From contig JAIVFI010000046.1 in the NCBI GenBank assembly GCA_025558095.1, positions 1 through 64,000 of the forward strand: a DNA stretch of 64,000 nt, in the 5' to 3' direction. This stretch comes from Hyaloraphidium curvatum. Its lineage: Eukaryota; Monoblepharomycota; Hyaloraphidiomycetes; Hyaloraphidiales; Hyaloraphidiaceae. A program made the translations under genes and the position numbers. Shown here one piece after another: positions 1 through 34,236 of this stretch. The number at the start of each line of letters is the position of its first letter. The first letter of the stretch is position 1. The notes under the pieces are model-generated. The model made no database searches and was not told the DNA's origin. It saw only the letters and a program-made list of their open reading frames with translations.

Positions 1-36
1 ACCGAACCCAAACGCGCCCGACACTCCGACCGCAGA

Positions 37-1323: not shown

Positions 1324-1977
1324 CAAGGGCAAAATGTGTTTGTGGTTTTGCGTGTCATTCGAAGTGCCCTGCACCTGCATCCGGCCGCCAGCCCTCTCCG
1401 CGACGCATACCCGCATCGGATTGGCTCTCTGTTTCTGCCGTTTGCGCCTGCCGGAGGAGTTCGGCGTGCGGCGCCCGCCAAGGGGCGACCCCGGCCGAAT
1501 CCCGCCCGTGTGGCGCTGGGAGCACAGCCATCGGAACCACCGCGATCCCTCGCACCGCCGGGGCCGAATGACGGGGCGGACAAGGCTACCCGTAAAACAC
1601 ATGCCATCGGGCCACCGGCAGAGCTTACCGGTCGGGTTTTCCATCGATTTTGGCTGCGGGCCGGCAAACGGACGCCGGCACCGCTTTGCCGCGGACCTCC
1701 TTCCCCTGCCGCCGTACTTCACTTCCGAGTGCATTCACCCGAGGCGAGCCCCTTCGCGTCGCGGTAAACACCGGCTTCCAATCACTTGCCGCGGGCGCCG
1801 GAGCCGGCCCATGCGGACCTGCGCGTCCGATCGCTTGGGACACTGGCCGCGCCCTTAGAGTTGGGGATCGGCCAGCCGAGTCTAGCCGCTTCCGCTGCGG
1901 TGCTGTGGTCCCCGCTCGGACCAGTTTCGAAATCCCGAGGGGCGAACCACCAACCCATCCCTCGCCTGCAGAAAGGA
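1324..1977. other. Intergenic region, kinase 1 to kinase 2
   Basis: About 650 bp between tandem kinase genes. I see no conserved coding segment or RNA gene. It presumably holds the kinase 1 terminator and the kinase 2 promoter. Confidence 0.4.
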
Positions 1978-3171
1978 ATGTCCTCGCAGACGCGAAACGC
2001 AGCCGCCGCCGCCATGCACGCCCTACCGGCCCCTCCGCGGGCCGCTCCGACGTCGCCGCCGCCGCCGATCCCCTCGCCACCGCTGTCCTCCCCCGGCGCC
2101 CCGCCGGGCTGCGAAGGCTGCAAGGCGTGCCGCTCGAGGGCATTCGCCGAGGGCCGCGCCCGCCGGAAGGACCTCGAGGTTCTGCGCACGCTCGGCGCGG
2201 GGACTTCGGGCATCGTGCAGTCCGCCGTCTGCAGGCGCACCGGGGCGGTGGTGGCCGTCAAGTCGTGCCGCAAGGCCGCGCGCGAGGCATACCTCCCCCC
2301 CGTTTTGCGGGCGCCATCGGGCCCCGGAGCCGACCCCGTCTCGCTGCGCCGCCGGGTGGACGCCATTGCGGGTCTTCGCCACCCCAACCTCCTCGAGGTG
2401 TACGAGTTCTTTGAGACCCGCGACTCCTGCTACGCCGTCATGGAGCTCGCGCAGGGCGGGGACCTGGACGCGTACCTCGCGTCCACGGGCAAGCTGCCGG
2501 AAAGGGACATCCGCTCCGTCCTGCACGGCATCCTCTCGGGCCTCGCCTACCTGCACTCCCGCGGAATCGCCCACAGGGACGTGAAACCGGCCAACGTGCT
2601 GCTGCGCACCGAAGACGACCCCGCGTCGGTGGTCCTCGCCGACTTCGACGGCTCCTTCGTCTCGGAGCCCGGGGAGAGCTCTGCGGGCATGAAGACCCTC
2701 GTCGGCACCCCCTACTTCCTGGCCCCGGAGCTCGTTTCGGGGAAGGACTATGGCCCCGAGATCGATGTCTACTCGGCTGGCTGCATCGCGTTCCTCCTCG
2801 CGTGCGGCCGCACCCCGTTCCAGGACTCTTCATCCTTTACCGAGCTGTACTCCCGTATATCCCGCGGGGGCTGGACGTTCCCCAGCGCCGCCCGCATCTC
2901 TCGGCCGCTGGAGGACCTCATCCGGACCATGCTCAGGACGGATCCGGCCCGGCGCCCTTCGGCATCGGAGGCCCTCGCGCATCCCTTCTTCGCCTCGGGA
3001 TCGGGGCAGAGGTCGGCCAGCGGGGTCCGGGTGCGGTTCGACGAGCGGACGGGGGAGCTGTACCCCGACGACGGCGGCGCTGCGCCCGGCCGGACGGGGT
3101 GGGCGGAATCGGGGGCCGAGGCGGTGGAACTGGCGTTGGGAATGCGGGCCGCCGCAGTGAGGGCGCCATAA
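1978..3171 (+). CDS. Ser/Thr protein kinase-like protein, array copy 2
   Basis: Intronless, 397 aa from the ATG at 1978. The frame is open further upstream to 1786, but that extension has no match in the paralogues, so the internal ATG is preferred; another ATG at 2014 is possible. The N-terminus is Pro/Ser-rich with a GCEGCKAC cysteine motif. The kinase domain has LGAGTSGIV, VAVK, HRDVKPAN, DFD in place of DFG, GTPYFLAPE and DVYSAG. The tail motif SGVRVRFDERTGEL is present. It is closest to copies 1 and 3, with long runs of identical nucleotides around the APE/DVYSAG region, which suggests recent duplication or conversion within the array. Confidence 0.9.
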   Translation: MSSQTRNAAAAAMHALPAPPRAAPTSPPPPIPSPPLSSPGAPPGCEGCKACRSRAFAEGRARRKDLEVLRTLGAGTSGIVQSAVCRRTGAVVAVKSCRKAAREAYLPPVLRAPSGPGADPVSLRRRVDAIAGLRHPNLLEVYEFFETRDSCYAVMELAQGGDLDAYLASTGKLPERDIRSVLHGILSGLAYLHSRGIAHRDVKPANVLLRTEDDPASVVLADFDGSFVSEPGESSAGMKTLVGTPYFLAPELVSGKDYGPEIDVYSAGCIAFLLACGRTPFQDSSSFTELYSRISRGGWTFPSAARISRPLEDLIRTMLRTDPARRPSASEALAHPFFASGSGQRSASGVRVRFDERTGELYPDDGGAAPGRTGWAESGAEAVELALGMRAAAVRAP

Positions 3172-3804
3172 GTGGTCTTTGGCGGGGTAACTAGCCGGCC
3201 TAGAGAGAGCACATGTTCGTGTGGTCGTGATTGGCATTCGAAGCAGTCTGCTGCGCTGTTTGCGAGATAGTGAGCCGGGTCCGGCTTTGGTTGCCCGCTG
3301 ATGGAGACCGTGATGGGTCCTCGGGACTCCGAGGGGGGCGGTCCTTGGGAGACGGCGAGGACGGCCCTGGTGGCGCATCCGCATGTCGGGGCTGGGGCAT
3401 GGCTACGGTGTCCGATCCCGCCCGAAACGCTCTGAACGCTCGCTGGCGCCCGGCTGCGCTCCGGAGCTCGTCCGGTGGTAGATTTAGAAATCCCCCTTCC
3501 TAGTCGAGGCCATTTCGTGGGATTTTCGGCGGGTTTTCAATTGGGTCCGCGGTCGCCCACCGCATTGCCGACGACCCCTGAATCCCTCGGACTTTCGGGC
3601 AAGTCGGCCCGCGTCTGCCGCACGTTCCAACTACGCTACCCAAATATACTGTTATGGCACGTTCTTCCGGAAGTGCGGCGCACCCTCCGGTGCGGCCGTA
3701 TGCACGCCAGCACGTCGCGATCGACGCTCGCCGTGTGAGGGAAGGTCGGGCCGACTGCCCGAGATCAACCGCCCACCGCAGCTCGCCGACGACCTCCTCC
3801 GGCA
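3172..3804. other. Intergenic region, kinase 2 to kinase 3
   Basis: About 630 bp with no conserved coding segment that I can support. Its AT content is slightly higher than in the genes. Confidence 0.4.
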
Positions 3805-5040
3805 ATGGCGCCCGCCCACGGCCCGTCGGAGGGTTTCGCTGACACACCCGCCCCGCAACCGCCGCCTCCGTCGCGCGCCGGCGCCGCGCGGTCCCCCGCG
3901 CCGCCGCGCCATTCCCCGCCCTCCTCCGCCGGCTCCGCGTCCGGCTGCGAGACGTGCGAGCCGCGTCGGCCGCGCGTGTTCGCAGAGGGCCGCGCCCGCC
4001 GCAGGGATCTCAAGATGCTGCGCGCGCTGGGCGCCGGCACGTCGGGCATCGTGCGGTCGGCGCTCTGCAGGACCACCGGAGACGTCGTCGCCGTCAAATC
4101 GTGCCGCAAGATCGAGGCGGGGTTTCGCGGACCGCCGGCGCCGCCCGGCAACCCCGCCCTCGGAGGCGCTGGCTTCGATTGCGAAGCGCTCCGCCGCCGG
4201 GTGGCCGCAATCGCAGACCTCCGTCACCCGAACCTGCTCGAGGTGTACGAGTTTTTCGAGACACGGGAGTCTTGCTACGTGATCATGGAGCTGGCTGAAG
4301 GAGGCGACCTGGACTCGTACCTCTCCTCCGTGGGCAAGCTGCCCGAAAGGGACATTCGAGCCGTCCTGCACGGCATCCTCTCCGGCCTGGCCTACCTGCA
4401 TTCTCGTGGAATCGCCCACAGAGACGTGAAGCCGGGCAACGTGCTGCTTCGTGCCAAGGACGACCCCTCGTCCGTCGTCCTCGCTGACTTCGATGGCTCG
4501 TTCGTCGCAGATCCGGACGACACCTCCCCGGTTATGAAAACGCTCGTTGGAACGCCATATTTCCTGGCCCCAGAGCTGGTTTCGGGGAAGGACTATGGCC
4601 CCGAGGTCGATGTCTACTCGGCCGGCTGCATTGCCTTCCTCCTGGCGTGCGGCCGCACCCCCTTCGAGGACTCTTCCTCCTTTGCCGAGCTCTACTCCCG
4701 GATATCCCGCGGGGGTTGGGCCTTCCCCAGCAGCGCGAAGATCTCCCGCCCCCTCGAGGACCTCATCCGGAGCATGCTCGAGACGGACCCCTCGCGCCGA
4801 CTGTCGGCATCGGCGGCCCTCGCCCACCCCTTTTTCGCCCTCGGGTCGAGGCGGAGGTCTTCGAGCGGGGTCAAGGTGCGGTTCGACGAACGGACGGGGG
4901 AACTGTTCCCCGAGGACGGCGGCGGCGCGCCTGAAGGGGTGGTCACCGGAGACGAGGCGGCCGAGCGGGCTCGCGCCATACAGGTTGCGGTGCTTAGGGC
5001 GCGGCATGGGGTGCACGGGCGGGAGCCGTCGTCGGAATAG
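3805..5040 (+). CDS. Ser/Thr protein kinase-like protein, array copy 3
   Basis: Intronless, 411 aa. It has the same layout as copies 1 and 2: Pro/Ser-rich N-terminus with a GCETC motif, a GRARRR basic segment, glycine loop LGAGTSGIV, VAVK lysine, HRDVKPGN catalytic loop, DFD instead of DFG, GTPYFLAPE and DVYSAG. The tail is SGVKVRFDERTGEL. The C-lobe DNA around 4560-4700 is almost identical to that of copy 1. It is intact, with no frame break. A regulatory or signalling role is inferred only from the fold. Confidence 0.9.
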   Translation: MAPAHGPSEGFADTPAPQPPPPSRAGAARSPAPPRHSPPSSAGSASGCETCEPRRPRVFAEGRARRRDLKMLRALGAGTSGIVRSALCRTTGDVVAVKSCRKIEAGFRGPPAPPGNPALGGAGFDCEALRRRVAAIADLRHPNLLEVYEFFETRESCYVIMELAEGGDLDSYLSSVGKLPERDIRAVLHGILSGLAYLHSRGIAHRDVKPGNVLLRAKDDPSSVVLADFDGSFVADPDDTSPVMKTLVGTPYFLAPELVSGKDYGPEVDVYSAGCIAFLLACGRTPFEDSSSFAELYSRISRGGWAFPSSAKISRPLEDLIRSMLETDPSRRLSASAALAHPFFALGSRRRSSSGVKVRFDERTGELFPEDGGGAPEGVVTGDEAAERARAIQVAVLRARHGVHGREPSSE

Positions 5041-5385
5041 TTGGTTCGGTAGCTTTCTTGATTGGATGCAGTTTTCGTGTCGATGTCCGGACTCGTGCTC
5101 CAGGCGCCATGCCAAGTTCTTCCGCCCGGTCTCCAATCGGGGATGACGCAACCCGGCGGCCCAGTAAGATCGCATTGGTCCCGCGAGCGCCGGCCGCACG
5201 GTGACCGGTCATCTCGCGATGCGTCAGGGCAACGCCAAGTCCGACTATTCCGAGGCACCCCTCGCTGCCGTACACTCCGGAGCGGCGGCGAAATCGGCGA
5301 TCCGATGCCGCGGGTGGTTCCTTGAGGGCCGCCTATCGCGTCGGGGCTTCGATTCTGGAGCGTCCCTACCCCTGCCCCAACCGGA
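5041..5385. other. Intergenic region, kinase 3 to kinase 4
   Basis: About 345 bp without a recognisable gene. Confidence 0.4.
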
Positions 5386-6766
5386 ATGCAAGCCGTGCGG
5401 CCTCCCTCGAGTCCCTCCTCCCTGGCCGGGCGTCCGGACCTCCGTCCGTGCAGCCGCGCCGGCGCCGACCCCGCCTCGCCGCCGCGGCGGTGCTTCCCGG
5501 GACCCAACGCCCGCACCCTGTCCTCCAGCAGCAGCTCAGGGTCCCCCGACCCCGCCGACGACGCCGGTGCGGACGGGGAGGACACCTACTCCCACGGCCG
5601 GGCGCGGCGGCGGGCGTACAAGATGCTCCGCTTCGTCGGCGCGGGCGCGTCGGGAACGGTCAGGGCCGCCGTGAGCCTGCAGACTGGCGAGGTCGTCGCG
5701 CTCACGGCCTCGCGGAAGCAGACGCCGGCGGACGACCCTGGGTCCGAGATCGCTTTCGGGCCCTGGGACGCGGAGATTCGCCGGCGCTACGCGGTGATGG
5801 CGGAACTGCGTCACCCCAACCTGGCGCGGATACACGAGTTCTTTGCCACTGCGAACAAGTTCTATGCGGCCATGGAGCTCGCCGAAGGAGGGGTGGGTCC
5901 ACGTGGCATCCCGCCCACCCCGACGCTCTCTGACCAGCGCTGCTGCAGAACCTCGAGAGCTACGTCGGCCGCGGGAAGATGCTCCCCGAAACCGACATCC
6001 GAGTGGTGCTCCAGGCCATTCTCGACGGACTTGCCTACCTCCACAGCCACCGCATCGCGCACCGCGACGTGAAGCCGGCCAACGTCCTCCTGCGCCGCCA
6101 ACAAGACCTCTCCTCGGTGGTCCCCGCCGACTTTGACGGCTCCTTCGTCTCCGACGGCAACGAAACCTCCCCCAACATGCGGACCCTCGTCGGCACGCCC
6201 TTCTTCCTCGCCCCCGAGATTGCCCTCGGCCGCCCGTATGGGATCCCCGTCGACGTCTATTCAGCGGGCTGCATCGCCTTCTACCTCGCCTGCGGCCGCA
6301 CCCCGTTCGAAAACGCCACCAGCTTTGACCGGCTCTACCATCGGATCTCGACCGGCGACTGGCGGTTCCCCAAGGGCGCGACGTGCCGGCCGCCCTTGAG
6401 GACCTCGTGCGGCGGATGCTCGCGACGGACCCCGCAGGAAGGATCGCAGCGTCGGGGGCACTGGACCACCCGTTCTTCGCAAAGGCGAGGCGGAGGCTGA
6501 GCGGCGTGGAGGTCTGGTACGATCTGAGCACGGGTGAGCTGGTGGCGTGCAGCGGAGCCGAGGCGTGCAGCGCGCTATGGACGGGGACCAATGTGCACTC
6601 TGCTATCCAATACCTGGACTTCCTGCGCTTCTATGCGCGACGTCTTGACGACGTGGACCTAGAGTGCTGTCTGTCGTCGGGATCGGGTAAGCTGGCGGCG
6701 CTCGGGGGTGCAAGTGGTTTAGGGACCACTCGCCGGAACGAAACCGCCCGCGTCCCTCGGCTATGA
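5386..6766 (+). pseudogene. Kinase-like gene copy 4, decaying
   Basis: Two exons, 5386-5892 and from 5949. The 56-nt intron (GTGGGT...CAG) sits right after the conserved MELAEGG, the same place as in copy 5. Two defects are visible. The VAVK lysine is replaced by Thr (VALT, codon ACG), although HRDVKPAN and DFD remain. Near 6380 the frame slips by one base: upstream reads FPKGA, then the next frame resumes the expected PAALEDLVRRML and the SGVEVWYD-TGEL tail, ending at 6766. A one-base deletion in DNA is the simplest reading; an assembly error cannot be excluded. If real, this is a pseudokinase on the way to a pseudogene. Confidence 0.75.
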
Positions 6767-6991
6767 ACCCGCGGCGCATGCGGTGCCTGAACCGATACTC
6801 GGGACTGTTCGCTCTGCATCCTGGGACCACCGGGCGGTGACCGGATCGGAGAAAGGCGCCGACTCGTGGTTTGCCAGGGGAGTTCGCAGGGGATCCCGGA
6901 ATCTGGGCCGGCCTCGACCGAGTGTCCCCTGCACCGCTTCCCGCTCGTTCCCCGATTCCAATCCCGCCGCCTCTTCCCCAGTTCCTTCCGT

Positions 6992-8217
6992 ATGGCGCAC
7001 CCTGCTCCTACGTGGACCACAGCGGCCGGAGACCTCCCAGATCTCCGCAGCTGGAGGCGGCCGGCCGTGCGGCCCCTCGCCGGCCCGGAGGAGGCGGCCG
7101 CGGTCGTCGACGCCCGCCGCCCGTCGGTGGTTTCGACGACGTCCTCCGACGGGGCGCCCGCCGAGTCGCCCGACGCCGTCGCCCGCGGCCGGGCGCGACG
7201 CAGGGCCTACCGTTCGTCGCGCACGCTGGGGAGCGGCGCGAGCGGGACCGTGCGGGCGGCGGTGAACCGGGAAACAGGGGCCGCGGTGGCGATAAAGGTA
7301 ACCCGCCGCGGGGGCCCCGTGGACGACTGGGGCCGGTCGGGAGGGACTTCCGGGACCGCAGAAGAGGCCGGGCGCCGGTTCGACGCGCTGGCTTCCCTGG
7401 AGCACCCGAACGTGCTTTCCGTCGTCGAGTTCTTCGAGACCCGGCGAGCCTTCTATCTGGTCATGGAGCTCGCCGACGGAGGGGTAAGCACTATCGCGGG
7501 GCGACAAGGCTGGGTTGGTTCTGACGAGCCCCCGCACAGGACCTGCAGGACTATGCGCGGCGCCGGGGGACGCTCGAAGAGGACGACATCCGCGGGGTAC
7601 TGCGGTGCATCCTCCGCGGCCTGGCCTACCTCCACGCCCACGGCATCGTCCATCGCGACGTCAAGCCTAGCAACGTGCTCCTCCGGCGGCGGGACGACCC
7701 GCGCTCGGCGGCCCTGGCCGACTTCGATGGCTCCTTCTTTTCCCGCGACGACGCCGGGGGAACACCGCCCAACATGCGCACCCTCGTCGGCACACCCTCG
7801 TACATGGCACCCGAGGTCGCCCTGGGCCGCCCGTACGGGGCCGAGGTCGACGTCTACTCGACGGGCTGCATAGCCTTCCACCTTGCCTGCGGGCGGACGC
7901 CGTTCCAGGATGCAGGCAGTTTCGAGGAGCTCTATCAGCGCATATCGGCCGGAGTCTGGCGGTTCCCGGAAGGCGCAAAAGTACCCGCCGCGCTCGGCGA
8001 CCTCGTCGGGCGGATGCTCGAAACCGATCCCGCGAAGCGCATCTCGGTGGCGGAGGCGCTCGACCATCCCTTTCTCGCCGAGTCCAGGCGCAAGCTGAGC
8101 GGGGTGGAGGTGATGTACGATGAGGGCACGGGGGAGCTGGTGGCCTACTGCAGGCGCGAGGAGCCTTCGGCGTGGTCCGAGCGCGGGGAAGCAGGGGTCG
8201 TGGAGAGCGCCGTATAA
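6992..8217 (+). CDS. Ser/Thr protein kinase-like protein, array copy 5
   Basis: Exons 6992-7483 and 7540-8217, 389 aa. The 56-nt intron (GTAAGC...CAG) lies after MELADGG in phase 0, exactly where copy 4 has its intron. The start ATG at 6992 gives MAHPAPTW and a short Ser/Ala-rich N-terminus without the CxxC found in copies 1-3. Domain landmarks: [24 protein letters not shown] for [12 protein letters not shown] and DVYSTG. The tail [14 protein letters not shown] is conserved. Intact. A catalytic Lys, HRD Asp and the first Asp of DFD are all present. Confidence 0.9.
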
Positions 8218-8714: not shown

Positions 8715-8797
8715 CCTCGATCCGTAATCCGTTCTCTTCTTTCTGCCGCGTACAAGACTCGAGAAGCGTAGCGTGCAGCATTCCCGCCCCCCATCCG

Positions 8798-11700
8798 TCA
8801 CCCCGGCCCGCGCTCCCGCAGCCGCCGGCGGTACTCTTCCAGCACGTTCACGAGCGGGCCGGCCTTCGGCGTGTCCGACGAGGCGGTGGCGGTTTCGTCA
8901 TCCGCGGGTCCGTCATCAGGCATGTTGGCGGCGGGGGAAGCGGAAACGGGTCCGTTCGGATCCGTCTGGTCCGTGGCCGAGTCTGCGTCCGTTGACGCCG
9001 GGGCCGCGGCGCCGGCTTCGACCGCCATGGAATCCGCGAGATCGGGCTCCGGAGAGTCTGGCCAATCCTCGTCCATGCCACCGTGCTCCAAGCCCATCTT
9101 GGTGTCGTCCAGGATGTCGGAATCGGGCGGTCCTGCCTCGAGACCAGACGCCTCGCCTTCGACGGTCGTCTCCAGTGCCGCACCTGCCCCCTCCTCCCGC
9201 ACCTTGTCGCCAACCCGCCCACTGTCCGCCTCGACGGTGATGCCGAGTTCGGCCAAACGGCTCCTGGCGGCCCTGACCTCGTTGGCTGTCCCCAAGGAAC
9301 GAGTACACCACTTGTACACGCACCTGTTCACATAGTCGAGGGACGACAGCCCGCCTAGCAATGTTCTGGCATGCGCCAGTAGTGGTTATGGCAAACACCA
9401 TTCCGTCAACCACAACGACAGACATGGTCCGCTCGTCGCCTGTCGAATGAATGTACCGCAGCTCGGTCCGGGTCCACCCGGCCGCGGTCGCCATTGCCTC
9501 GAAGCGGACCCTGAGCGCGGCTTCCAACATTTTGAGCTCCGCTGCGAGCTCCGGATCCCTCGGATCCCCCAGCTCCAGTGCGGTGGAACCTGCACCGTGT
9601 GCGACGCTCCAAAGGCGGTCGCGCGCGCAGTAAACGGCCTTCCTTCCAGAAAGCGCTCAGAGATGAGAAGGGCGACATCCCGGCCCCGAGGACCCGGCCT
9701 CCCGAGAGAACTTCGACCAACGGGCAGCCGTTCCGCTCCGAGACTCGATACTCCAGGGATCCGTGCCCTTGCTCCGCGCCAGCAGCCTCCAGCTGCGACT
9801 TCTGCGAGGCAAGCTGCCGTAGATCGCTGTGCATCTTGAGCATGCCGAGAAGCATGGCCCGTTTCGGGGTTTGCTTAGTAAAGGTTATCCGGTTGGGGAA
9901 GTTGTCGAGCAGACAGTCGAAGACATTGCGCAGCCCGCTGACGTCTCCATCGACAGGGGTAACCACGCAGCGCACGTCGCCGAAACCCATCTCCGCAGCC
10001 GCCTGGCGGAGCTTCTCTCCAGCGAGGGTGAGGTCGGGCTCCGGATCGGCGTGCGCTCGGGTAGCGGCGGGCAACTGGAGTCTCCCGGAGCCGTCAACGC
10101 GAAGCGCGCTGTTGGCCGCGCGCTCGCGGGCCCACAGTTCCATTGACGACCTCGCGCGCGCAAGCACCCGATCGCCCAACAGAACCTCCGCGACGTAGAC
10201 TTTGCTGGTCGGCTTTGAGACTCGGAACTCTGGAGCACCGAGCCCTGCGTACGATGCCGCTTCGTTTAGCCACCTGATGAGATCGACAAGGCGGCCCAGC
10301 TGCAATGTCGCTTCGCGGACGCCGTTGAACCTGACGTGCCCGACCGACTCGAGGCTGGCGGAAGCCCGCCCAAGGGCGTCGCCGAGCCACAAGCAAAACC
10401 GCTATTGCGATGAGCCCGTGCTCGTCACCTCCGGGGTGACAGTCCACCGCACATTCTCGAACCCCAAGCTCCGCCGCCAGCTGGCGCATTTGCGGCTCCT
10501 CCTTGGCCGCAAGGGCGGCGAACCTCTCGTCCCTGTCGGCCAGCTGCTCTTCGCTCAAGGGTTGGCGATGAAGCGGCAGTTTCGGCTTGTCAGCATGGTC
10601 CAGCGAGGGCGCGGCGTCGGGCTCAGCCGCGCTCGGATCAGCAGTACGGCGCGCAGCCGTTGCATTGGCCGCAAAGTTCCCCCGTTCCACCACCGCCAGC
10701 GCTGCCGTGATCGCCTCGCGCCTGGCCTTTAGTTCCAGCCGCCGCCGCATCAGAGGGTTCGAACCGCTGATCCGATACTGTTTGTCGTGAAGCAGCGTCC
10801 GGCCCGCGGTGACGTGTGCGCGCACGACCGAGAGCTTCGCGCTCTTCCAGAAGCTGATTTTGACCTCTCCGAGACCCGCTTCCCGGGCCGCTGAGTCGAG
10901 CTTCTCCTGGAGCGCTTCCCCGAGCAGGGCACCCGAGATCTCCCTCGCGGCGCGCTCGAGGTACGGACCAAACACCCGCTCGACGACCCGCCTCGCGAGC
11001 TCGATCCCGCCGCTGACGTACACGGCGCCGACGAGGGCCTCCACGGCGTCCCCGAGGCGGTCCTTATTGGAAACGGAGCAGGCGACGAACCGGACGAGCT
11101 CGAGGTCCGTGGCGACCTTGGCGAGCATGTGGGCTCTGACCACACGCGACCGGAGCTCGGTGAGGATCCCCGGGGGCTCCTCGGGAAACCGGTGGTACAC
11201 CACGTCGGCGACGACGAAGCCGAGCACCGCGTCGCCGAGGAACTCGAGGCGCTCGTTGTCGTGGGGTGAGGCCTGACCGCGGGGGGTGAGGGCCAGCCGG
11301 AGCTGGTCGAGGTCCATGGCGACGCCGAGACGGGAGAGGAGGGGTGCGAGGCGCTGGCTGTCGCCCTGGTACGAGGGGACGGCCCGGGGAAGCTCCGCGC
11401 GGGCCCGCGGTGTCGGGGCCTGCTTCTTCTTCTTCAGAGGCTCCGGCCTCTCCTTTGTCTTGGCCGGTTCGGGAGGCGAGTCGATTGGAAAGAGCTCGTT
11501 CAGCACCAACAAAGGGTCGCGTCCCGGGACCGCAGCGGGTTGCGGCTCCATGGGAGCTGCCGGCACCAAAGTTACGTCCGGGGACGTCGAGTCTTCTGGA
11601 GGAATGGGTGGTCCTCCTGAACCGTCATCGTCGCCCGCCACGTCCACCAATGTCGGTTCCGGGGTATTCAGGGCTTCGACCGGGTCAGTCTCGCCGACGT

Positions 11701-12139
11701 CCAATGCCTCTCCCATGTCCGTTGCCGCTGCCAGCTTCGCCTTCTCGGCCGGGCCCGACCCCAGAGCAATCGCCTCCATGACGCTCCCCGACACCACTTC
11801 CCCCTCAGCCCTCCCCGGAGCCCCCTTTTGCGCCTCCCACACCTTCTTCTTCCGCCGTGTGCGAGCCCGCCCCACGGCCGGCCGCTCGGCGTCGCTCTGC
11901 GTGTCCTTGAGCAGCGAGAGCAGTGTCTGGGCCGCAAATTTCGGCTTCTGTCCCCGATCCCACGGGTAGGGAGAGGCGGAGAAGGTCCGACAGGCGGCGG
12001 GGACGAAGTGGAACGCGTCCATGACCGCTAAGTTGGAGGCCCTACGGCAAGTGTTCCGGGAACGTTGGGGCTGCCACGTCGCCGACAGCCCGCGCCTCCA
12101 TGCCACCCGGAAGAGCCGGATGGGGGCGAGAGGGGCCAT
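8798..12139 (-). CDS. Long RNase III-like protein with repeated dsRBD-like modules, copy 1 (frame-broken)
   Basis: Starts at the ATG at 12137-12139 (MAPLAPIRLFRV, a basic N-terminus that could be a mitochondrial presequence); copy 2 aligns from the same point. A low-complexity acidic linker leads to a class III RNase domain with NERLEFLGDAVLG and GDAVEALVGAVY, so the acidic catalytic residues are present. A canonical-looking dsRBD follows, then about five degenerate dsRBD-like modules, an acidic Pro/Ser/Asp region and the terminal VLEEYRRRLRERG. The homology changes frame three times, near 10392, 9655 and 9361, each time by one extra base (or two missing). None looks like an intron. The gene is either a young pseudogene or carries assembly indels. 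Substrate unknown. Confidence 0.75.
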
Positions 12140-12374
12140 CGACCCCCAACAACGGTCGGGCCGGGGTCGCGGTTTGTTTACGGTTGACGAGACGCGCGTC
12201 GATCGGCCAAGTGTCCCCGCACTACGAGGCCTTCGCCGCACCCTGCGGCGATCCAGCTTACTCCTTATGATGAATGGAAGTAAGCAGTGCAGGACCATAA
12301 GCGAGGGAAAGTGCGGCCGCGGAAGAGTGGAAGTGACATCTATCCACCAACGCCCCTGACAAGACCCGTCACCG

Positions 12375-14717
12375 TCAAGCTTCCCCCTTCTCTTTGACCT
12401 TGAACCCCGCCGGCGGCGGCTCGTACCGCTTCCTCAGCTGCCTGAAGAAGCTCCGCACGCTCCACGAGTCCTCCCCGTCCTGCATCCCGAAAAAGTGCCA
12501 CTCTGCGAACGGCTTGTTCCGCTTCTTCTCCCCGCTGACGTTGTGGTCCGGGTTGAACCGCGTGAACTGCTTCAGGTACCCCGCGTAGGACGCCTCGTCC
12601 CCCCAATCGGCCTCAGCCCCCGCGCCCTGGTAGCGCTCCTCCCTCCCCTGCCCCTCCCCCACGCTCCCGCCGAGCCCCTCGACGTTGTCCGCGGCGCGCA
12701 GCTCCCTGTTTCCCCCGCTGCGCTCCCAGTACAGCGGGCTCCAGCACATCTCCCTCAGCCTGCTGCTCGCCCTCTTGAACGCAAACAGCTCGTCCTCGGC
12801 CGTGAAGATGGTCATCCTGTCGATCCGCCGGCGGTCCACGAGCTCGTCCTCCCGCGCCGACGACGAGAAGGGCGAGCGCCGGCGGTACGCGAGGTCGCGC
12901 GCGGTGATGGCCATGGCGGCGCCGACCGTCTCGCGGAGCATGATGTCCATGTCGTCGCCCTCCTCGGCCGCTTCCTCCGCTTCGGCTGGCTGCCGGGCCC
13001 GCGGGTCCGGGGGGCCGCCAGATTCGGCCTCGTCCGAAACCGCGGCGCGGTGCCCCCTCGTCGCCCTGAACCCGCCCCTCGGCGCCTCCCGATCCCCCAG
13101 ATCCCATTCCCCCGCCCCGTCCCCGCCGAACGGCTTGGCGCGGACCACCGGGGCCCCCTTCTCCGCCTGCTTCACGCGGAACAGCCGCTCGGGCTCGCGG
13201 TCCGCGAGCACGTACACCGCGCAGCCGCCCTCGTACGCGGCGTCGAGCAGGGTGATCAGCCTCCGCGCCGCCTCGCGCTCGCGGAGGCCCATGAGGGGGA
13301 GGTCTGGGAGAACGAGGGTGTCGTACCTCCGGCAGAGGTGCAGCACGTCCAGCGGCCCGAGGGGGGTGAGGAGGTACGAGAAGGGGAGGAGGCACGCGCG
13401 GTGGTCCGGGGGGAGGGATTGCGGGACGGTGAGCGCACGGGAGAGGATGGGGAGGGAGAAGGGTGTTAGCGCGGGGCGGGAGGCGGCGGGGCCGAGGGCG
13501 CGGTCCAGGGTGGCGGCCCAGCCTTCCTCCCAGCCCTCCTCGCCGCGCACCCAGAAGCGCTTCTCCTTCTGCCGTGCTGCGGCTTCGGCGGCCTCCTCGG
13601 ACCCGGCTTGGGCGCCTTCCCCGCCCATCCCGGCGAGAACCCCCCTCCAGTCGCGCCCCCCGACCTCGACCCCGTCCATCCGCCCCTGCACCACCCTCCC
13701 AAGCCCCTTGCCGAGAGTGCCAAGCTCGCCGGGCTGCTTGTTGGATGTCGCGAGCAGCACCCCGCCGAGGGAGAAGAAGTGCTCAAGGAGCACCGAGAGG
13801 ATCGAGGTCGTCGCGGGGTCGGGGGCCTGGAACTCATCGAGCATGAGGACGGGGTGGGCGCGGACCATGCCGAGGGCGATGGTCAGGAGCACGTGCGGTT
13901 CGCTGGGTACCGGCTGCGCGTCTTCCGAACCCGCCACAGGGGAGTGATCGGGGTGCCTTGCAGCACGGGTCCGCACGCGGTGCATCTGCCCGTAGAGGTC
14001 CTGCATGAAGGCGTGGAAGTGCACTCTGCGCTTGCGGTGCGTGGGCAGCGAGTCGTGGAACAGGTTGAGGAGCAGCGACTTGCCCGTGCCGACGGGGCCG
14101 TGGAGGAAGATGCCCTTGGGCGTGAGCGGGCCGTCGTCCTCTGATCCCGCGGCCGACGAGGCGTCGGGCGTCTTGACCACCGACGAAGTGGCGTCATCGG
14201 GTGCTACGGTCGACCAGGTGTCGCCGTCCTCGTGCAGCCGCGCGCCCGGGCCCGGCCGCGCCTCTCTGGCCCTCCTCTCGGCCCGCGGCGCGTAGTCGGC
14301 GACCTCGTCGAACAAAGACTGCAGCTTCCGAACGGCGAGGAACTGACCCTCGTCGTAGCGGATCACGCCGCGCGAGACGAGCGAGCGGTAGAGTTCCATC
14401 GGGCCCGTCGGCAGCAGCGCCGATTCCGGGGCAGCGGGCACCTCGATCGGGGCCTCGGCGGCAACCGGCCCGCCCACAGTCGCAAATCCGCGGAAAGGCA
14501 ACAAAATGGCATGTCCCGCGGTTGAGACCGACCCCAATTTGGAGTTCAAGGCTGCCTTCCGGCCCGACAGGCGGCTCCGAAGTGCCGGTGAGGAAGGTCC
14601 TGCCCTGCTCGACAGGCCGCCTCCAATCGCGCCCGAAGCCCGGCCAGAGACAACGATAGAGCCATAGCCGTGGGCAGCGGGACTGTTGAGCCCGCGAACG
14701 GGCCTGGTAGCCCGCAT
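12375..14717 (-). CDS. AFG1: AFG1/LACE1-type mitochondrial AAA ATPase
   Basis: Single exon, 780 aa. The N-terminus is basic and Ser/Ala-rich, as expected for mitochondrial import. Walker A GPVGTGKS follows KGIFLHG, and the Walker B VLMLDEFQ is typical of the Afg1/ZapE family. The region containing LLATSNKQPGEL corresponds to sensor 1. The C-terminal half has the family's DLPLMGLREREAARRLITLLD-like segment and ends with a long extension containing YLKQFTRFNPDHN and SVRSFFRQLRKRYEPPP. Family members act at the mitochondrial inner membrane in protein quality control; that role is inferred from homology. It is longer than yeast Afg1 because of low-complexity inserts. It lies between the two inverted RNase III genes. 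Confidence 0.88.
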   Translation of the reverse strand: MRATRPVRGLNSPAAHGYGSIVVSGRASGAIGGGLSSRAGPSSPALRSRLSGRKAALNSKLGSVSTAGHAILLPFRGFATVGGPVAAEAPIEVPAAPESALLPTGPMELYRSLVSRGVIRYDEGQFLAVRKLQSLFDEVADYAPRAERRAREARPGPGARLHEDGDTWSTVAPDDATSSVVKTPDASSAAGSEDDGPLTPKGIFLHGPVGTGKSLLLNLFHDSLPTHRKRRVHFHAFMQDLYGQMHRVRTRAARHPDHSPVAGSEDAQPVPSEPHVLLTIALGMVRAHPVLMLDEFQAPDPATTSILSVLLEHFFSLGGVLLATSNKQPGELGTLGKGLGRVVQGRMDGVEVGGRDWRGVLAGMGGEGAQAGSEEAAEAAARQKEKRFWVRGEEGWEEGWAATLDRALGPAASRPALTPFSLPILSRALTVPQSLPPDHRACLLPFSYLLTPLGPLDVLHLCRRYDTLVLPDLPLMGLREREAARRLITLLDAAYEGGCAVYVLADREPERLFRVKQAEKGAPVVRAKPFGGDGAGEWDLGDREAPRGGFRATRGHRAAVSDEAESGGPPDPRARQPAEAEEAAEEGDDMDIMLRETVGAAMAITARDLAYRRRSPFSSSAREDELVDRRRIDRMTIFTAEDELFAFKRASSRLREMCWSPLYWERSGGNRELRAADNVEGLGGSVGEGQGREERYQGAGAEADWGDEASYAGYLKQFTRFNPDHNVSGEKKRNKPFAEWHFFGMQDGEDSWSVRSFFRQLRKRYEPPPAGFKVKEKGEA

Positions 14718-14865
14718 CGGTGTTGGGACGGCGGGGCACGGAAATCGGATCGGGCGGCCGGCCGGCGGCCGGCGAAGTCAAAGCTGGCAGGAACGAGATC
14801 GACTGACTGCGCGAAAGAGCCAGATCAAAGCTCACAATGGCATTGCGACAGAATTCAGATCACAC

Positions 14866-16137
14866 TCAATCATCCAGCTCGACGTCCGAGTCCTCGGGCT
14901 CCTCCTCGCGCCCACCCCACGCCCACCTCGAGACGCCCGCCTCGGAGGCGGTCCACACCTCCCCTCCGAAGATCCTCACCACGCCCGCCGGGCACTCCAT
15001 CCTCGCCACCCTCGTCCCCGAGAACAGCCCGTGCGCCGACATCCCGAACTCCCCGAGCGCGTAGACCACCCTCGCCCGATCGTCGACGGCCAGCGACACG
15101 GGGGACAGCGGGTCCGCGTGCGCAGGGAGGGGGTATTCCACCGCCGCCTTGCCCATCCGCCTTAGGTCCACCAGCACCGCCGACCCGCCCGCCCCCGCCG
15201 ACGCGAGGAACCTGTCCCCGGGCACCACGGTGACCGCGGTGGTGCTCCCGGGGTGCCGGCACGCCAGCTTGGGCTGCCCCCGCTCGCGCAGGTCCCAGAG
15301 GAGCACCCTCCCGTCACGCATGCCCGCGGCAGCGAGGGGCGGAGCCAGGTGCGCCGAGAACGGGTCCGACGGGCTCCTCAGCACGCGGGGAGCGCCGGGG
15401 ACGGAAGGGAAGTACGCGAGGCCCCTGGTGAACCCCGCCAGCGCCGAGCCGGAAGCGAGGGAGGAGCAGAAGAGGGAGCCTCTGTGCGGGGACCAGCTGG
15501 AGAGCACGGCGGGGCCGTCGGTGCCGAGGGAGAGGAAGCGCACGAGGCCGGGAGCGTCGGCGGCACCGAGGTTGGTGGCTGCGAACAGCTGCGGCGCTCC
15601 GGGGCCGGTGTCCGGGTCCAGAGAGATGGAGGTGATCCGGCCTGCTGGTCTGGGTGCGGGTCCAGAGGCCGGTAGGCGGGGCCGAAGCAGCGACGAGGAA
15701 ACCGGCCCCGGCTGCCCCCGGCGGACGGCCCCGAGCTCGCCCGACTCGGTGCCGACGACCACCGCTTCCGCGTGCGGCCCGACAACGGCAAAGTCCGACA
15801 CCGCGCCCCTGAAAAAGGGCAGGTCCTCGGCCGGCCGCAGGCGCGACGCCGCCAGCCTCGCCAGCGCCCCCTCCAAGCACCTCATCCCCTTCAACGACGC
15901 CGTCCCCCGACTCTGCCACATCAGCTCGGGCAGCCCGACCCGTCTCACATCCCCTTTCCCCTCTCCCTGGGCCCGCGCCTCATCCAGGATGCGCTCCGCC
16001 TCGGCCTCGCGCTTGCGCTTCCGCACGGCGTCCTGGGTCACGAAACCCTCGGCCGGCGCCTTCCACGAGGGAAGGACCTTGAAGTACTTTCGGGTCGAGG
16101 GGTCGAAGTAGTACCCCGGGATCGCGGGTGCCTCCAT
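14866..16137 (-). CDS. DCAF4 (WDR21)-like WD40 protein
   Basis: Single exon, 423 aa. The N-terminus MEAPAIPGYYFDPSTRKYFK matches the PG-(F/Y)-Y-(F/Y)-DP...YFK(L/V)LP signature of DCAF4/WDR21 proteins, substrate receptors for CUL4-DDB1 ubiquitin ligases. WD-like blades are visible, for example GRVLLWDLRERGQPK and ASAGAGGSAVLVDLRR, and the C-terminus is acidic (EEEPEDSDVELDD). The role in CUL4 ligase is family knowledge, not shown here. It is 148 bp from the AFG1 gene in the same orientation and divergent from RNase III copy 2. Confidence 0.75.
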   Translation of the reverse strand: MEAPAIPGYYFDPSTRKYFKVLPSWKAPAEGFVTQDAVRKRKREAEAERILDEARAQGEGKGDVRRVGLPELMWQSRGTASLKGMRCLEGALARLAASRLRPAEDLPFFRGAVSDFAVVGPHAEAVVVGTESGELGAVRRGQPGPVSSSLLRPRLPASGPAPRPAGRITSISLDPDTGPGAPQLFAATNLGAADAPGLVRFLSLGTDGPAVLSSWSPHRGSLFCSSLASGSALAGFTRGLAYFPSVPGAPRVLRSPSDPFSAHLAPPLAAAGMRDGRVLLWDLRERGQPKLACRHPGSTTAVTVVPGDRFLASAGAGGSAVLVDLRRMGKAAVEYPLPAHADPLSPVSLAVDDRARVVYALGEFGMSAHGLFSGTRVARMECPAGVVRIFGGEVWTASEAGVSRWAWGGREEEPEDSDVELDD

Positions 16138-16381
16138 TGGGAAGGGAGGTGACCGGGCGGCCGTCGAGGGGAGGCGGAGGCCTGGGCCGCCTTCCGCCCT
16201 CCTCGGATGGCTCCCAAGGCTTCACGATCTCCGATAAAGACCGGAAATTACAAGAAGCTGGCGCATTTCGGGGCCGGGACCGCCTGTTTGACACTGTCGT
16301 TGTCGGGGGCAAAGGATTCCCCCGCGATCCCGCTCTCGTTAAACAAATGGGACGCCGCCAGGCCCGGCGTCCTGGGAGGCA

Positions 16382-19300
16382 ATGGGGCCTCTCGTCCCGG
16401 TGCGGGGACTTCTTTGGGCGCGGGCACGGGCGCTGCGGGAGGCTTCGTCGTTCCGAGTACCCCGGAACCCCTCCCGCCGGGCCTCGATCCTGCTGGTATC
16501 GGACTTCCTTCCCCGCCCGGCCTCCTCCTCCCGGACATTCAACACGTCTCCCTCCGGACACGATCGGGCCCAGAAGCCGATAATCGCGGCCGAGGCGCTT
16601 CTTTCGCTGCTCAAGGACGCGCAGCGGGATGCCGAGCGGCCGGCTGTGGGGAGGGCGTCGAGCAGGAGGAGAAAGAGGTCCCGGCAGCCGAAATCGGAGG
16701 TTCCTGGGAGAGGGTCTGGGGAGGGGATGTCGCTGAGCGTCATGGAGGCGTTCGCTGCTACATCGGGCACATCTGAGGACGCCGAGCTGGCGCGGACGGC
16801 GGACACGGCAGAGGCGCCCGCCAGGGGCGAAACGGACCCGGCCCAGGGCGGGAATGCCCCTGTCCCGATATTTTCGGACGCGGCTCACGATGGGAGTGGG
16901 GCCGAAAGACCACCCACTCCATCACCGGCTTCGGCATCCCCGGACGAACAACGCTGCCTCCTGCCGCCGGCGACGAGCAACCCGCGGCGGTGCCGGGGCG
17001 CGACCCCCCGCTAGTGCTGAGCGAGATGCTTCCCATCGTGGCGCCAAGCGAACCAGAAAAGCCCAAGGCGAGTCCGCGGCCGCCGAAGATTAGAAGGTCA
17101 CTGCGGCAACACCGGCCCGTCCCAAACCTCCCGACGCCGTTGCCTCGGACGAGGCGGACATCCAGCGCTTCGCCCCCCTCCTCTCCCGCATCGGCGTCGC
17201 CATGGACCTCAGCCAGCTCCGGCTCGCCCTGACCCCGCGCGGCCAGGCCTCGCCCCGGGACAACGAGCGCCTCGAGTTCCTCGGCGACGCCGTGCTCGGC
17301 TTCGTCGTCGCCGACGTGCTCGACCACCACTTCCCGGATTACCCTCCCGGCACGCTCACCGAGCTTCGGTCGCGCGTGGTCAGCGCCACCATCCTGGCCA
17401 AGGTGGCCGACGACCTGGAGCTGAAGCGGTACATCGCCGGGGAGCCGAGCCCCCGGACCCTCGGCGACGCGGTGGAGGCGCTCATCGCCGCACTGCACAT
17501 CAGCGGCGGGTTCCGGCTGGCGTCGCAGTTCGCGGAGCGGACTTTTGGGCCGTACCTCGAGCGCGCCGCCGACATGTCGCTGTCCCGGCGGACTCCGCCG
17601 CGCTGCTGGAAGCGCTGCTGCAGGGCGGCGGCCCAGGAGGCCGGGCTGGGCGGGGTCAAGATCACGGTGAAGAACCACAGGACGTTGCCCGCCATCCGGG
17701 CTGAGGTCACGGCCGGCACAACGGTGCTGGGAGCGAGGGAGCTCATGGTCAAGGGCCGGAAACGCATGCGGCGGAACCTGGAGCTCATTGCCGGGCGGCT
17801 TGCCATGCAAAGAGCCCAGAAGAGGCTCAAGCGCAGGTCGCCAGTGCCTGAGGCCGGCGGGGACTCCGCCGAAAGCATGGGGGACTCGGCCGTCGAGTTC
17901 ATGCCTGCCGTGGAGCTTGCGGAGTCTGAACCGAAATTGGACCTCCCGCAGGACATCAGGCGCTTGTCAAAGGATGCCTTCGCCCGGCGGAGGCAAAGGG
18001 TCGACGCGCTGGCGACGGAGGCCGAGGTGCAGCTGCTTTCACTTGCCGACAAGCTGGGTTTCGGCGGCGCAGTTTGCTCGGTCATCGAGGAGAAAAGCAG
18101 CAACGGGGTGATGCGGTGGAGATTCCGGTTGCTTCGCCACGAGACCGTCTTGAGCATAGGCGGGAGCCCGGAGTCGCCCGAGCACGCGCGCTATATCGGC
18201 ATCAACGACGCCCTCGCCGTTGTTCGGGATCTCGACAACGCCACCACGCGGCTTGAAACGGCCGCAGTGACTGCTGGGCTCGGGGTCCCGGAGCTCCAAG
18301 TCTCGCAGCGGCCCAACGGAAGCTCCTTCGTGGAGGTTCATCTCGGCGGCCAGGTGATCGCGAGCGGCGCTGCAATGTTTGAGCCCGTCGCGCGCAACAC
18401 TGCCGTCTACAACGCGCTTTATTTCCTCGGCGTCGGAGCTCCGCGCCCCGGCTATCTCGGTCAGCTGTCGGCGGGTGCCGGCCAGCAGGCCGCCGCACTT
18501 CCCACCGAACCCGAGCCCGAGCCGGTCGAGCTCGCCGAGGCGGAGCCCGACGCCGGCGCGACAGCACCGGAGACGGGATCGAGGCTGGTTGCGGCGCATC
18601 CGGGGGACCCCGGGGCGCGCGCCGATTCGGTTGCTGTTGCTGCTGAAAAGCTCCGCCGGGCCGCGGCAGATCACGGTTTCGCCAACGTGCAGTGCTCGGT
18701 TGCTCCAGGGGGATCCGAAGGTTGACAGCGTTTCGTCTTCAGATGTACGCTGGACAGCTTGCCCGCGACGCTAGATCCGCTGGGACTGGGCTCAACCGAC
18801 GACCAAGCCCTGGTCGACATGTCCAAGCCGGCGGAGGAAGCCATCTTGCTCCATGGCACGCGCAATGTCGTGATCAGGCTGGGCAACCTCTCCCGAGTGA
18901 AGCCGCAGCTCGAGAACATTGCCACCCGAGCCGGAGTGAGGGACCTCCAGTACCGGGATGCGGAGCGGAACGGCCTCGTCCTGTCGCAGGTTTTCTCGGG
19001 GGCCGAACTCATCGCCGGCGGCCTCGGCAGGGACGTCATCTCCGCGCGCATCCGGGCCTATTGCCTCGCGATCCACCACTGCATCCCCCGCGCGGGCCTG
19101 CGGACGGCCGAGGCGCGGGTGATGCGGGCCAACGAGTACTCTGCCGAGATCGACGCCCTGAACGCGGCCCTCCGGAAGAGCGTGGAGGAATCGGCTGTTG
19201 CCGCGGGTTGGGGCCGCGTTACCTGGGTCGTCTTGAACAACGGAGGCTCCGCCGTCCTTGTGGATGGGGCGCTGCTCGCCAGGAAGAGGGACAGCCCGTT

Positions 19301-19949
19301 CGCCAGCCGCACCGCGGTCACAATCAATCAATCAATCGCCCTCTGCGGGGCCCTCGTCGAGCTCGGCGCTGCGGATCAGGCCGTCTACAAGGCTGCTGCA
19401 GGAAAATTGCAGACGACGCAGGACGTCAGGCGCTTTCGGAGCGCGCTGGCGAGGCTGGGCATCGTTAACCCGGCCGGTTTCGCAGGGGACGAGCCGCAGA
19501 GGCACCCTGAGGACCTCGCGGAGGCTGCTGGCGGGTCAGCCGCAACGGCTACGGACGGCGTGGTCTCGGGCCTCTTGCCTTCCCCCGATTCCGCTACCCT
19601 GGACGACGACGATGCGGAGATGGTTTCGGAGAATGCCGACATGGGCCTGGATTGGGTTTCGCAGCCGCCCCCGGAGGACGGCTTTGCGGCGTCCGATGCT
19701 ACGCCGGACGCTGAGCCCGGCGTGGTCGTCGGTGCCGAAGCCGGCGTCGAGACCCCATCGATCCACACCGTCGCGGACCGGGCGGACTCGGGCCCAATCG
19801 CGACCTCCTCCTCCGGTTCCGACTCGCCGGAACCTGCATCCGAGGGTGGCGACCCCGCCAACGCCTCGTTGGGCAGGCGCAAGGCCGGCAAGCTGGAGGA
19901 CGTGCTGGAGGAGTACCGCCGGCGGCTGCGGGAGCGGGGCTTGGGGTGA
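16382..19949 (+). pseudogene. Long RNase III-like protein with repeated dsRBD-like modules, copy 2 (broken)
   Basis: Parallels copy 1 along its length, starting at the ATG at 16382 (MGPLVPVRGLLW) and ending with LEDVLEEYRRRLRERG. The RNase III motif NERLEFLGDAVLG and GDAVEALIAALH are intact. Hand alignment with copy 1 shows one-base losses near 16947 and 17094, a compensated frame excursion between about 17584 and 17630, and an in-frame TGA at 18723-18725; beyond it the same frame continues with homologous sequence. The module chain after the catalytic domain matches copy 1 module for module. With this many lesions it is best read as a pseudogene unless the assembly is faulty. The inverted arrangement around AFG1 and DCAF4 points to a duplicative inversion. 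Confidence 0.7.
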
Positions 19950-20154
19950 CGGCCGGGACGGCGGGAGTTCGGGAGGGCGGCAGCCCGGGCTCGTATGCAT
20001 CTTGTACGCGGCGGAAGAGATCGGATCGGGATCGGTGGATAACGACTGGCGCCTCCCGGACGTACCTTGCGATCGACATGGCGCTCGAGGACCCTGCCGA
20101 TCGCCGACGCGACTTCGAAATCACCCAATCCTCCACATCCCCGCCGGCCCGACG

Positions 20155-25637: not shown

Positions 25638-26710
25638 CTACGCGGAAGCGGAGATCGACATGCGGCACGCGATCTGGCAGAGCGCGGCCCGTCCCACCGA
25701 GGCGCACAGGGCCTGCCTTCCGGCCTTGCTGAGTGCGGGTGATCCCACTGAGGCGCAGAGCGCCTGCCCCGTCGCTTCGGCAGGCGGCTTGAGGCAGAGC
25801 GCGGCCCCGCGTCCGATCTTCGCCTGCTGCTGCTTGCCCCCCGCCAGGCTTTCGATGATGCCCCAGCATAGCGCTGCCTGGCCCGTGTCCTGCACGGCGG
25901 GCTTCGGGGCGCAGAGGCCGCCCCTGGCGCAGAAGGCCTTGCCGGCCGACTTGGCGGGAGGCTTGAGGCACGGAGCAGCGCCGGAAAGGTCTCCCGTTAC
26001 GCAGAAAGCCCCCTTGCCGGCCCTCGTCGAGGGATCCCAGTACATGCAAAGCGCGAGCCCGGTGTCTGCCTGGTTGGCTGCGGGGGGCTTCAGGCACAGG
26101 GCGTGCTTGGCGCCCGCCAGGTCGGCCTCCTTGAAAAGGACCGCGCAGAAGCCTTCCTTGGAAGCTCCCCCGCAGTCGTCGTCCTTGAACAGGGCGGCGC
26201 AGTCCGCGTCCGCGTCCGGGGACATCTCGTTTCCCCACATGGCCGGCGGGTCCTCGCCAAAGGCGGCGCGGTAGGCCCGCAGCCCCTCGGCGTAAGCCTC
26301 CGACATGGCGCCGCGCTGCTCGGCGGGGGTGTCCTCGGGGTCGGCGGGCACGTGGTGCATGAACCCGCCGGGCCCGAGGAGGGCCCGGGAGAAGGCGGCG
26401 TAGTCGATGGTGTGGAGGATGTGCGCGTGCCTGTTATCCAAGGCGACCCGCGTCAGATGTTGGCACCATGGTCGGATCGCAGGAAGGAGACCCACCAGAT
26501 CTCGTCGACGTCCAGGCAAGGCGGCATGCTCACGCCCCTCGCCGCCAGCGTGGCGAACCGGCGGTACTCTTCGACGGCGGCATCGGCGCGGGCCTCGGTC
26601 CACGACGGGTGCTCGCGGAGCACGCGGCGGCGGACCTTGGTGAGGTCGACGGCGGCGGCGGCTGGGTGGAGGAGGTTGAAGGTGATGGTGGGGGTGGGGG
26701 TGGACGACAT
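25638..26710 (-). CDS. GRDP-like protein with cysteine-repeat tail, arm A
   Basis: Exons 26710-26496 and 26430-25638, 335 aa. The 65-nt intron (GTGGGT...CAG) splits a Trp codon so that DEIW joins HAHILHTIDYAAF. With the later FMHHVP this matches the glycine-rich-domain-containing-like (GRDP-like, PF07173-type) signature of acidic-D-x-x-WH and HH-P. From about residue 170 the protein consists of cysteine repeats of the form G-x-ALC-x-KPPA and QALCASVG. No signal peptide is seen. The gene is divergent from the SDR of the same arm, and an inverted, partly identical copy lies at 34237-35300. Function unknown. Confidence 0.7.
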
Positions 26711-27189
26711 GGTATTTTGCGCGGGTTGTTGGTTGGGCTGCTTTGAGGGGAGGTTGCGTGGTTGCGCTAGGTCGCTTTGCTTTCGGTGCTTGGTATGGTG
26801 GAGGACCGCTGCAAGTGCGGGATGATATAGCTCTCGGAAGGCTACGCCGCTTGCCGGTCTTCCGTTCCGCAATGACTCCGCTCCGCGGGGCTGTCCGGTT
26901 CCCGGTTCTAGAAGGTGGCGGAGGGATGTGGGGCGGAGCAGCACAGCCTCGACGTCACGCCCGGCCCGTCGTCTCCCACGGCTTCAAACCTCAAGTGGTG
27001 GGCGTCGTGCAAGCCTGAGAAGGGCGTTGGACACGAGCAGCGCCATCATTGCTGCCTTGCAGCGCCCTCGATCGAAGTATCCTCACTGTTCCTCGGAACA
27101 TTCCGTATTCAGCCCTGTCTCCCCAAGGACACGGCAAACATCGAATCCGCCCTTTGGCCCCTTGAGTCGCTCACCAACAGCCTCCCGAA
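26711..27189. promoter_or_regulatory. Shared divergent promoter, arm A
   Basis: 479 bp between the GRDP-like and SDR starts. I count only about five differences from the inverted copy at 33758-34236, so it is roughly 99% identical. The element CTCTCGGAAG and a TATA-like GATGATATAG (about 26819-26828) are preserved in both. Confidence 0.6.
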
Positions 27190-33757: not shown

Positions 33758-34236
33758 TCCGGGAGGCTGTTGGTGAGCGACTCAAGGGGCCAAAGGGCGG
33801 ATTCGATGTTTGCCGTGTCCTTGGGGAGACAGGGCTGAATACGGAATGTTCCGAGGAACAGTGAGGATACTTCGATCGAGGGCGCTGCAAGGCAGCAATT
33901 ATGGCGCTGCTCGTGTCCAACGCCCTTCTCAGGCTTGCACGACGCCCACCACTTGAGGTCTGAAGCCGTGGGAGACGACGGGCCGGGCGTGACGTCGAGG
34001 CTGTGCTGCTCCGCCCCACATCCCTCCGCCACCTTCTAGAACCGGGAACCGGACAGCCCCGCGGAGCGGAGTCATTGCGGAACGGAAGACCGGCAAGCGG
34101 CGTAGCCTTCCGAGAGCTATATCATCCCGCACTTGCAGCGGTCCTCCACCATACCAAGCACCGAAAGCAAAGCGACCTAGCGCAACCACGCAACCTCCCC
34201 TCAAAGCAGCCCAACCAACAACCCGCACAAACTACC
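33758..34236. promoter_or_regulatory. Shared divergent promoter, arm B
   Basis: 479 bp between the SDR B and GRDP-like B starts, about 99% identical to the arm A promoter in inverse orientation. Confidence 0.6.

Follow-up and report, generated by a model that had tools for sequence, protein, structure and literature searches.

Class 1 ribonuclease III proteins, such as bacterial RNase III and Rnt1 of yeast, contain one catalytic domain followed by a dsRBD-type module. Proteins of this class normally have one dsRBD; R3B2 of the early-diverging fungus Mucor and RTL2 of Arabidopsis are unusual in having two, and R3B2 is devoid of the canonical catalytic signature (PMC4395119). Among the best papers of a literature search, none described an RNase III with more than two dsRBDs. 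Chains of dsRBDs are present in Staufen (PMC6477676), TRBP, Loqs and R2D2, in which some of the domains bind protein instead of RNA (PMC5716075). The mitoribosomal protein mL44 (MRPL44/Mrpl3) combines an RNase III fold with a dsRBD. It is not known to be catalytic, and its dsRBD is single.

Two genes of RNase III proteins, designated copies A and B, were found in the window, i.e., the whole stretch of 64,000 nucleotides analysed, which lies at the beginning of contig C46 of a GC-rich genome of 31.9 Mb; chitin synthases encoded in this genome point to a fungus. The copies are divergently oriented (Table 1), and frame-aware alignment showed them to be diverged, homologous and colinear over the full length, in agreement with the sequence-only reading, which had described two copies of one architecture. 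The range 8798–19949 given by that reading holds both copies, but it also includes two unrelated genes, encoding an AFG1-type ATPase and a WD40-like protein; the latter was named from its sequence, and no match to it was found in the Pfam scan.

Similar to class 1 RNase III, copies A and B encode one catalytic domain followed by a putative dsRBD-type module, but they differ from this class in having about six modules (M1–M6) in place of one dsRBD, a large linker and tail, and a deletion of the loop before the second acidic pair. As in R3B2 and RTL2, RNase III is combined with more than one dsRBD; those proteins have two dsRBDs only, whereas more than two dsRBD-fold modules are present in A and B. 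The canonical signature, absent from R3B2, is retained in both copies, and they do not belong to the R3B2 type, characterized by exactly two dsRBDs and a non-canonical signature. In contrast to Staufen, TRBP, Loqs and R2D2, which have no nuclease domain, the chain of A and B stands behind one. The chain behind the RNase III domain is a real and unusual layout; as far as the literature found shows it is new, the RNase III itself being of a known kind and the six-module chain being known from two copies in one genome.

Table 1. Features of copies A and B and of the genes between them (positions in the window).
Feature	Position	Strand	Evidence or remark
Copy A, entire	12139-8798	minus	
Copy A presequence-like N-terminus, MAPLAPIRLFRVAWRRGLSATW...CRTFSAS	11950..12139	minus	residue composition; RTFxxS motif common to B
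Copy A linker, basic then acidic	11401..11949	minus	sequence; aligned to B
Copy A RNase III domain, catalytic acidic residues retained	10949..11400	minus	PF00636, PF14622 E ~1e-18
Copy A M1, basic, dsRBD-like	10676..10939	minus	dsRBD profile 2% alone, 40% with C7 dsRBD
Copy A M2	10282..10531	minus	holds +1 shift near 10468 and TAG 10404-10402
Copy A M3, dsRBD	10084..10281	minus	93.7% alone, 95.4% with B
Copy A M4	9817..10032	minus	94.6% to M2
Copy A M5, dsRBD; +1 shift near 9657	9603..9816	minus	86.6% alone; 94.2% to M3
Copy A M6; +1 shift near 9380	9305..9539	minus	50% with B
Copy A acidic tail, end VLEEYRRRLRERGPG, stop 8798-8800	8798..9304	minus	sequence
AFG1-type ATPase gene	12378-14777	minus	between copies A and B; 800 codons
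WD40-like gene	14869-16221	minus	between copies A and B; 451 codons; name from sequence
Copy B, entire	16382-19949	plus	
Copy B presequence-like N-terminus and linker	16382..17120	plus	out of frame with RNase III domain via shifts near 16946, 17101
Copy B RNase III domain, catalytic acidic residues retained	17121..17570	plus	PF00636 E 6.9e-19
Copy B M1, first helix altered by compensated shifts near 17590/17630	17583..17840	plus	frame-aware alignment
Copy B M2	17991..18236	plus	AlphaFold2 alpha-beta-beta-beta-alpha
Copy B M3, dsRBD	18237..18440	plus	dsRBD profile, AlphaFold2, structural matches
Copy B M4, in-frame TGA 18723-18725	18630..18878	plus	alignment; M2~M4 similarity
Copy B M5	18885..19088	plus	M3~M5 similarity
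Copy B M6	19146..19379	plus	dsRBD profile
Copy B acidic tail, end VLEEYRRRLRERGLG and stop	19480..19949	plus	sequence

Other repeated sequences were also observed in the window. About five related genes of Ser/Thr protein kinases form a tandem array at 1–8217, and a sixth is found 30 kb from it, at 38594–39931; a 2.6-kb inverted repeat with 90% identity is located at 25638–28204 and 32754–35300 and contains a short-chain dehydrogenase domain in the right arm; two Glyco_transf_34 (GMA12/MNN10) genes in direct orientation, 66% identical and with unbroken frames, are located at 29405–30953 and 35490–37059.

The first 65 residues of copy A contain 11 R/K and 2 D/E, and the RTFxxS motif is shared with copy B; such presequence-like N-termini suggest that the products of both copies would be targeted to mitochondria. 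A single RNase III domain was found by the Pfam scan in each copy, with 68–69 bits for PF00636 (cut-off 27) and 63–69 bits for PF14622 (cut-off 35), and its catalytic acidic residues, namely E and D of NERLEFLGD and D and E of GDAVEAL, are retained in the alignments of both, as the sequence-only reading had proposed; alignments with bacterial rows, in which fragments of copy A were misplaced, were not used. Scores for the bacterial RNase III equivalog TIGR02191 (103 and 96 bits) are below the curated cut-off of 166.25, and the copies are thus related to this equivalog and are not its members. The best PDB sequence match is M. tuberculosis RNase III.

The genome search revealed three further genes of the RNase III type: a paralogue located on contig C7, a gene of the Dicer type on C6, which encodes two RNase III domains, and a candidate for mL44 on C14. 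The RNase III domain of the C7 paralogue is 40% identical to that of copy A. The segment preceding the second acidic pair in bacteria is deleted in A, B and the C7 paralogue, an indication that the three belong together as a single group. The module chain is absent from the C7 paralogue and from every other RNase III gene found in the host genome, and searches of this genome with the M4–M6/tail protein and with DNA of the 3' end revealed no third copy of it. The C7 paralogue, located at about 115.4–116.9 kb (L022 about 2867–4441), contains an RNase III–dsRBD unit followed by a second unit, in which the RNase III-like part is catalytically dead and the other part resembles a dsRBD (DSRM_2 E 2e-4, below the cut-off).

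The modules were compared with a profile of bacterial dsRBDs, for which 80 RNase III proteins were used. Pairs of A and B sequences reached 95% for M3, 80% for M5, 50% for M6, 6% for M4, 2% for M1 and 1.5% for M2; M3 and M5 joined gave 97%, end to end over 64 columns, and M1, at 2% alone, reached 40% over most of its length together with the dsRBD of the C7 paralogue. Column shuffles attained the observed score in none of 60 trials each for M3–M6, in 3 of 60 for M1 and in 4 of 60 for M2. Among comparisons of module with module (hhalign), M2 with M4 (94.6%) and M3 with M5 (94.2%) stand out, the remaining pairs being far lower; accordingly, a two-module unit was probably duplicated, M2–M3 giving M4–M5. 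The repeated module pattern reported earlier is thereby upheld, but the dsRBD directly after the RNase III domain, which had been called canonical-like, proved to be among the weaker modules. Judged by sequence, support for a dsRBD is clear for M3 and M5, intermediate for M6 and weak for M1, M2 and M4.

The sequence-only reading had named a structure prediction devoid of alpha-beta-beta-beta-alpha folds as its refutation; this outcome did not arise for M2–M3 of copy B, for which two such units were predicted (AlphaFold2, pLDDT 87, from an input alignment of four rows, all from this window), with the final helix of M2 continuing into the first helix of M3. Nearly all Foldseek matches of M2–M3 are dsRBDs, either single or in tandem (TRBP, R2D2, Loqs, DRB4, mL44, RNase III); structural Z values, referring mainly to M3, are 10.8 to the dsRBD of mammalian mL44 and 10.5 to that of T. 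maritima RNase III. A full-length model of copy B with the TGA read through is uninformative (pLDDT 40, the RNase III domain likewise), and in this low-confidence model the secondary structure shows the repeated pattern for M2, M3, M5 and M6. The predicted dsRBD fold is considered correct in the case of M2 and M3. M4 and M5 very likely have it too, whereas for M1 and M6 it is likely, though unproved. The earlier claim of tandem degenerate dsRBD folds therefore stands for the joined M3 and M5 profile and for the dsRBD-shaped M2–M3, but M1, M4 and M6 have no confident structure. It is scarcely credible that the modules are another repeat and not dsRBDs: the chain gave no dsRBD match in scans of Pfam (E 10) or NCBIfam (E 1), which is what the Pfam result would be for such a repeat, but profile matches, AlphaFold2 and structural matches contradict this for M2, M3 and M5.

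The structural match of M3 also bears on whether A and B encode an mL44-type mitoribosomal protein with added domains and no nuclease activity. The presequence-like N-termini, the top structural match of M3 and a match of copy B to PF22935 (mL44; E 1.9e-5) agree with such a protein, which is nevertheless very improbable, since the scores for PF22935 (15.7 and 25.2 bits in the copies) are below the cut-off of 27 while RNase III models reach E ~1e-18, catalytic residues are retained in both copies, a separate mL44 candidate is present on C14, and ordinary dsRBDs reach Z values level with that of the mL44 dsRBD.

Inspection of the sequences revealed neither the GPxH loop nor the KKxAK helix start in any of the modules M1–M6, and the loss of the KKxAK basic patch stated in the sequence-only reading is thus confirmed for M2–M6, which lack both motifs and are not canonical type-A dsRBDs. 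Of the type-A RNA contacts, M1 has kept only the basic second helix. Net charge, a weak guide to RNA binding given that bacterial dsRBDs average +0.3, is +7 and +20 for M1 and from −2 to +3 for M2–M6. Type-B dsRBDs without RNA-binding residues bind proteins instead (PMC5716075), and by analogy M2–M6, without RNA-contact motifs, may have served as a protein scaffold.

Only two stretches of the copies align as DNA, namely, 10947–12000 with 16521–17569, in the 5' third (72%), and 8782–8907 with 19840–19966, comprising the last ~127 bp (80%). Synonymous divergence is 0.4–0.7 in the 5' half and mostly near saturation in M1–M6. This patchy divergence, with similarity at both ends, suggests gene conversion. 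The sequence VLEEYRRRLRERG at the C-terminus is common to A and B, as noted before. The dN/dS ratio is ~0.5 throughout; for the RNase III domain, an enzyme domain, this value is relaxed.

Neither copy is one continuous open frame. The intact protein of ~1,100 residues in the sequence-only reading was obtained by joining frames silently; frame-aware alignment revealed several breaks in each copy (Table 1) that the intron consensus does not explain, and none of them is common to A and B. The compensated pair in copy B was judged by eye against copy A; at 17583–17640 these shifts, ~40 bases apart, turn the first helix of M1 Arg- and Cys-rich. Reassigned stop codons or programmed frameshifting are implausible, because several independent breaks occur in each copy and the genes alongside are clean.

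The intron model was built from 20 putative introns of the window. These are 50–66 nt in length and have a strong consensus, with donors resembling GTRNGT, branch sites resembling CTSAC, and CAG; introns of the mL44 and Dicer genes of the host genome agree with this length. Introns as a general cause of the frame breaks were rejected, every spanning GT-AG pair scoring 12.5 or less (7.7–12.5, versus 15.9–26.1 for the 20 reference introns in a leave-one-out test). That the breaks are spliced out nonetheless, some through non-consensus introns, so that both proteins are made but the affected modules lose at least one beta strand, is improbable. A 51-nt GT-AG pair around the TGA of copy B preserves the frame and contains TTGAC, similar to a branch site, and a 61-nt pair in copy A excises the TAG and joins the frames; against splicing stand these low scores, the homology of the excised pieces to exonic sequence in the other copy, and the lack of a phase-correct pair at breaks 16946 and 17101 of copy B.

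Errors of assembly were considered as well, with both genes intact and expressed as proteins of ~1,100 residues. One break of copy A coincides with a run of G (GGGG, about 10465), 407 codons are open after the TGA of copy B, and GC3 periodicity persists around the breaks; together with the conserved C-terminus, the long open stretches and periodicity imply either that decay is recent or that the breaks are errors. However, breaks are concentrated in copies A and B, while the two intervening genes have clean frames, and among duplicates of the window the frame-aware test found no breaks in the glycosyltransferase pair or within the coding part of the two most closely related kinase pairs (one repeat pair without a clear coding frame was left out). 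More distant kinase pairs do show frame changes, of which one coincides with a putative intron. The compensated pair of copy B appears evolved, and the relaxed dN/dS extends to the RNase III domain. Intact genes with assembly errors are accordingly unlikely, though they retain appreciable weight. Taken with splicing, the wider possibility, a functional class 1 RNase III of ~1,100 residues in mitochondria, with five degenerate dsRBDs serving as its own protein scaffold, an adaptor chain of the Staufen or TRBP kind fused to the nuclease, is tentative and leans towards unlikely. The failure of the intron model and the clean frames of closely related duplicate pairs indicate that most likely the breaks are real and the copies are decaying; the chain is probably decaying in both copies, or has been cut to RNase III plus a few modules.

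The explanation we favour, with a probability of about 0.55, is that an ancestral mitochondrial class 1 RNase III with six modules underwent inverted duplication and that both copies are now frame-broken. The ancestral fungal gene would have encoded a mitochondrion-targeted RNase III of the bacterial type with six dsRBD-fold modules, its chain having grown by duplication of the two-module unit. The basic M1 would still grip dsRNA and position it for the catalytic dimer, while M2–M6, having lost the RNA-contact motifs, would act as a protein-binding scaffold similar to type-B dsRBDs, tethering the nuclease to a partner, for instance the mitoribosome or an RNA-processing complex. An inverted duplication would then have placed one copy on either side of the AFG1 and WD40 genes, and both copies would have acquired independent frame-breaking changes. 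Present products would most likely be truncated or none: presequence, RNase III and M1 from copy A, and RNase III to M3 or M4 from copy B.

The likely decay of both copies tempers the significance of this locus, since the layout may have been tried and may now be being lost, with the tail partly a relic. To our knowledge, the known RNase III folds in fungal mitochondria are ribosomal proteins; if the copies are targeted as their sequence looks, a catalytic RNase III would be present in fungal mitochondria. The six-module chain would illustrate how a dsRBD was multiplied behind a nuclease by unit duplication and then released from RNA binding, which may make it a natural test case for the origin of type-B, protein-binding dsRBDs.
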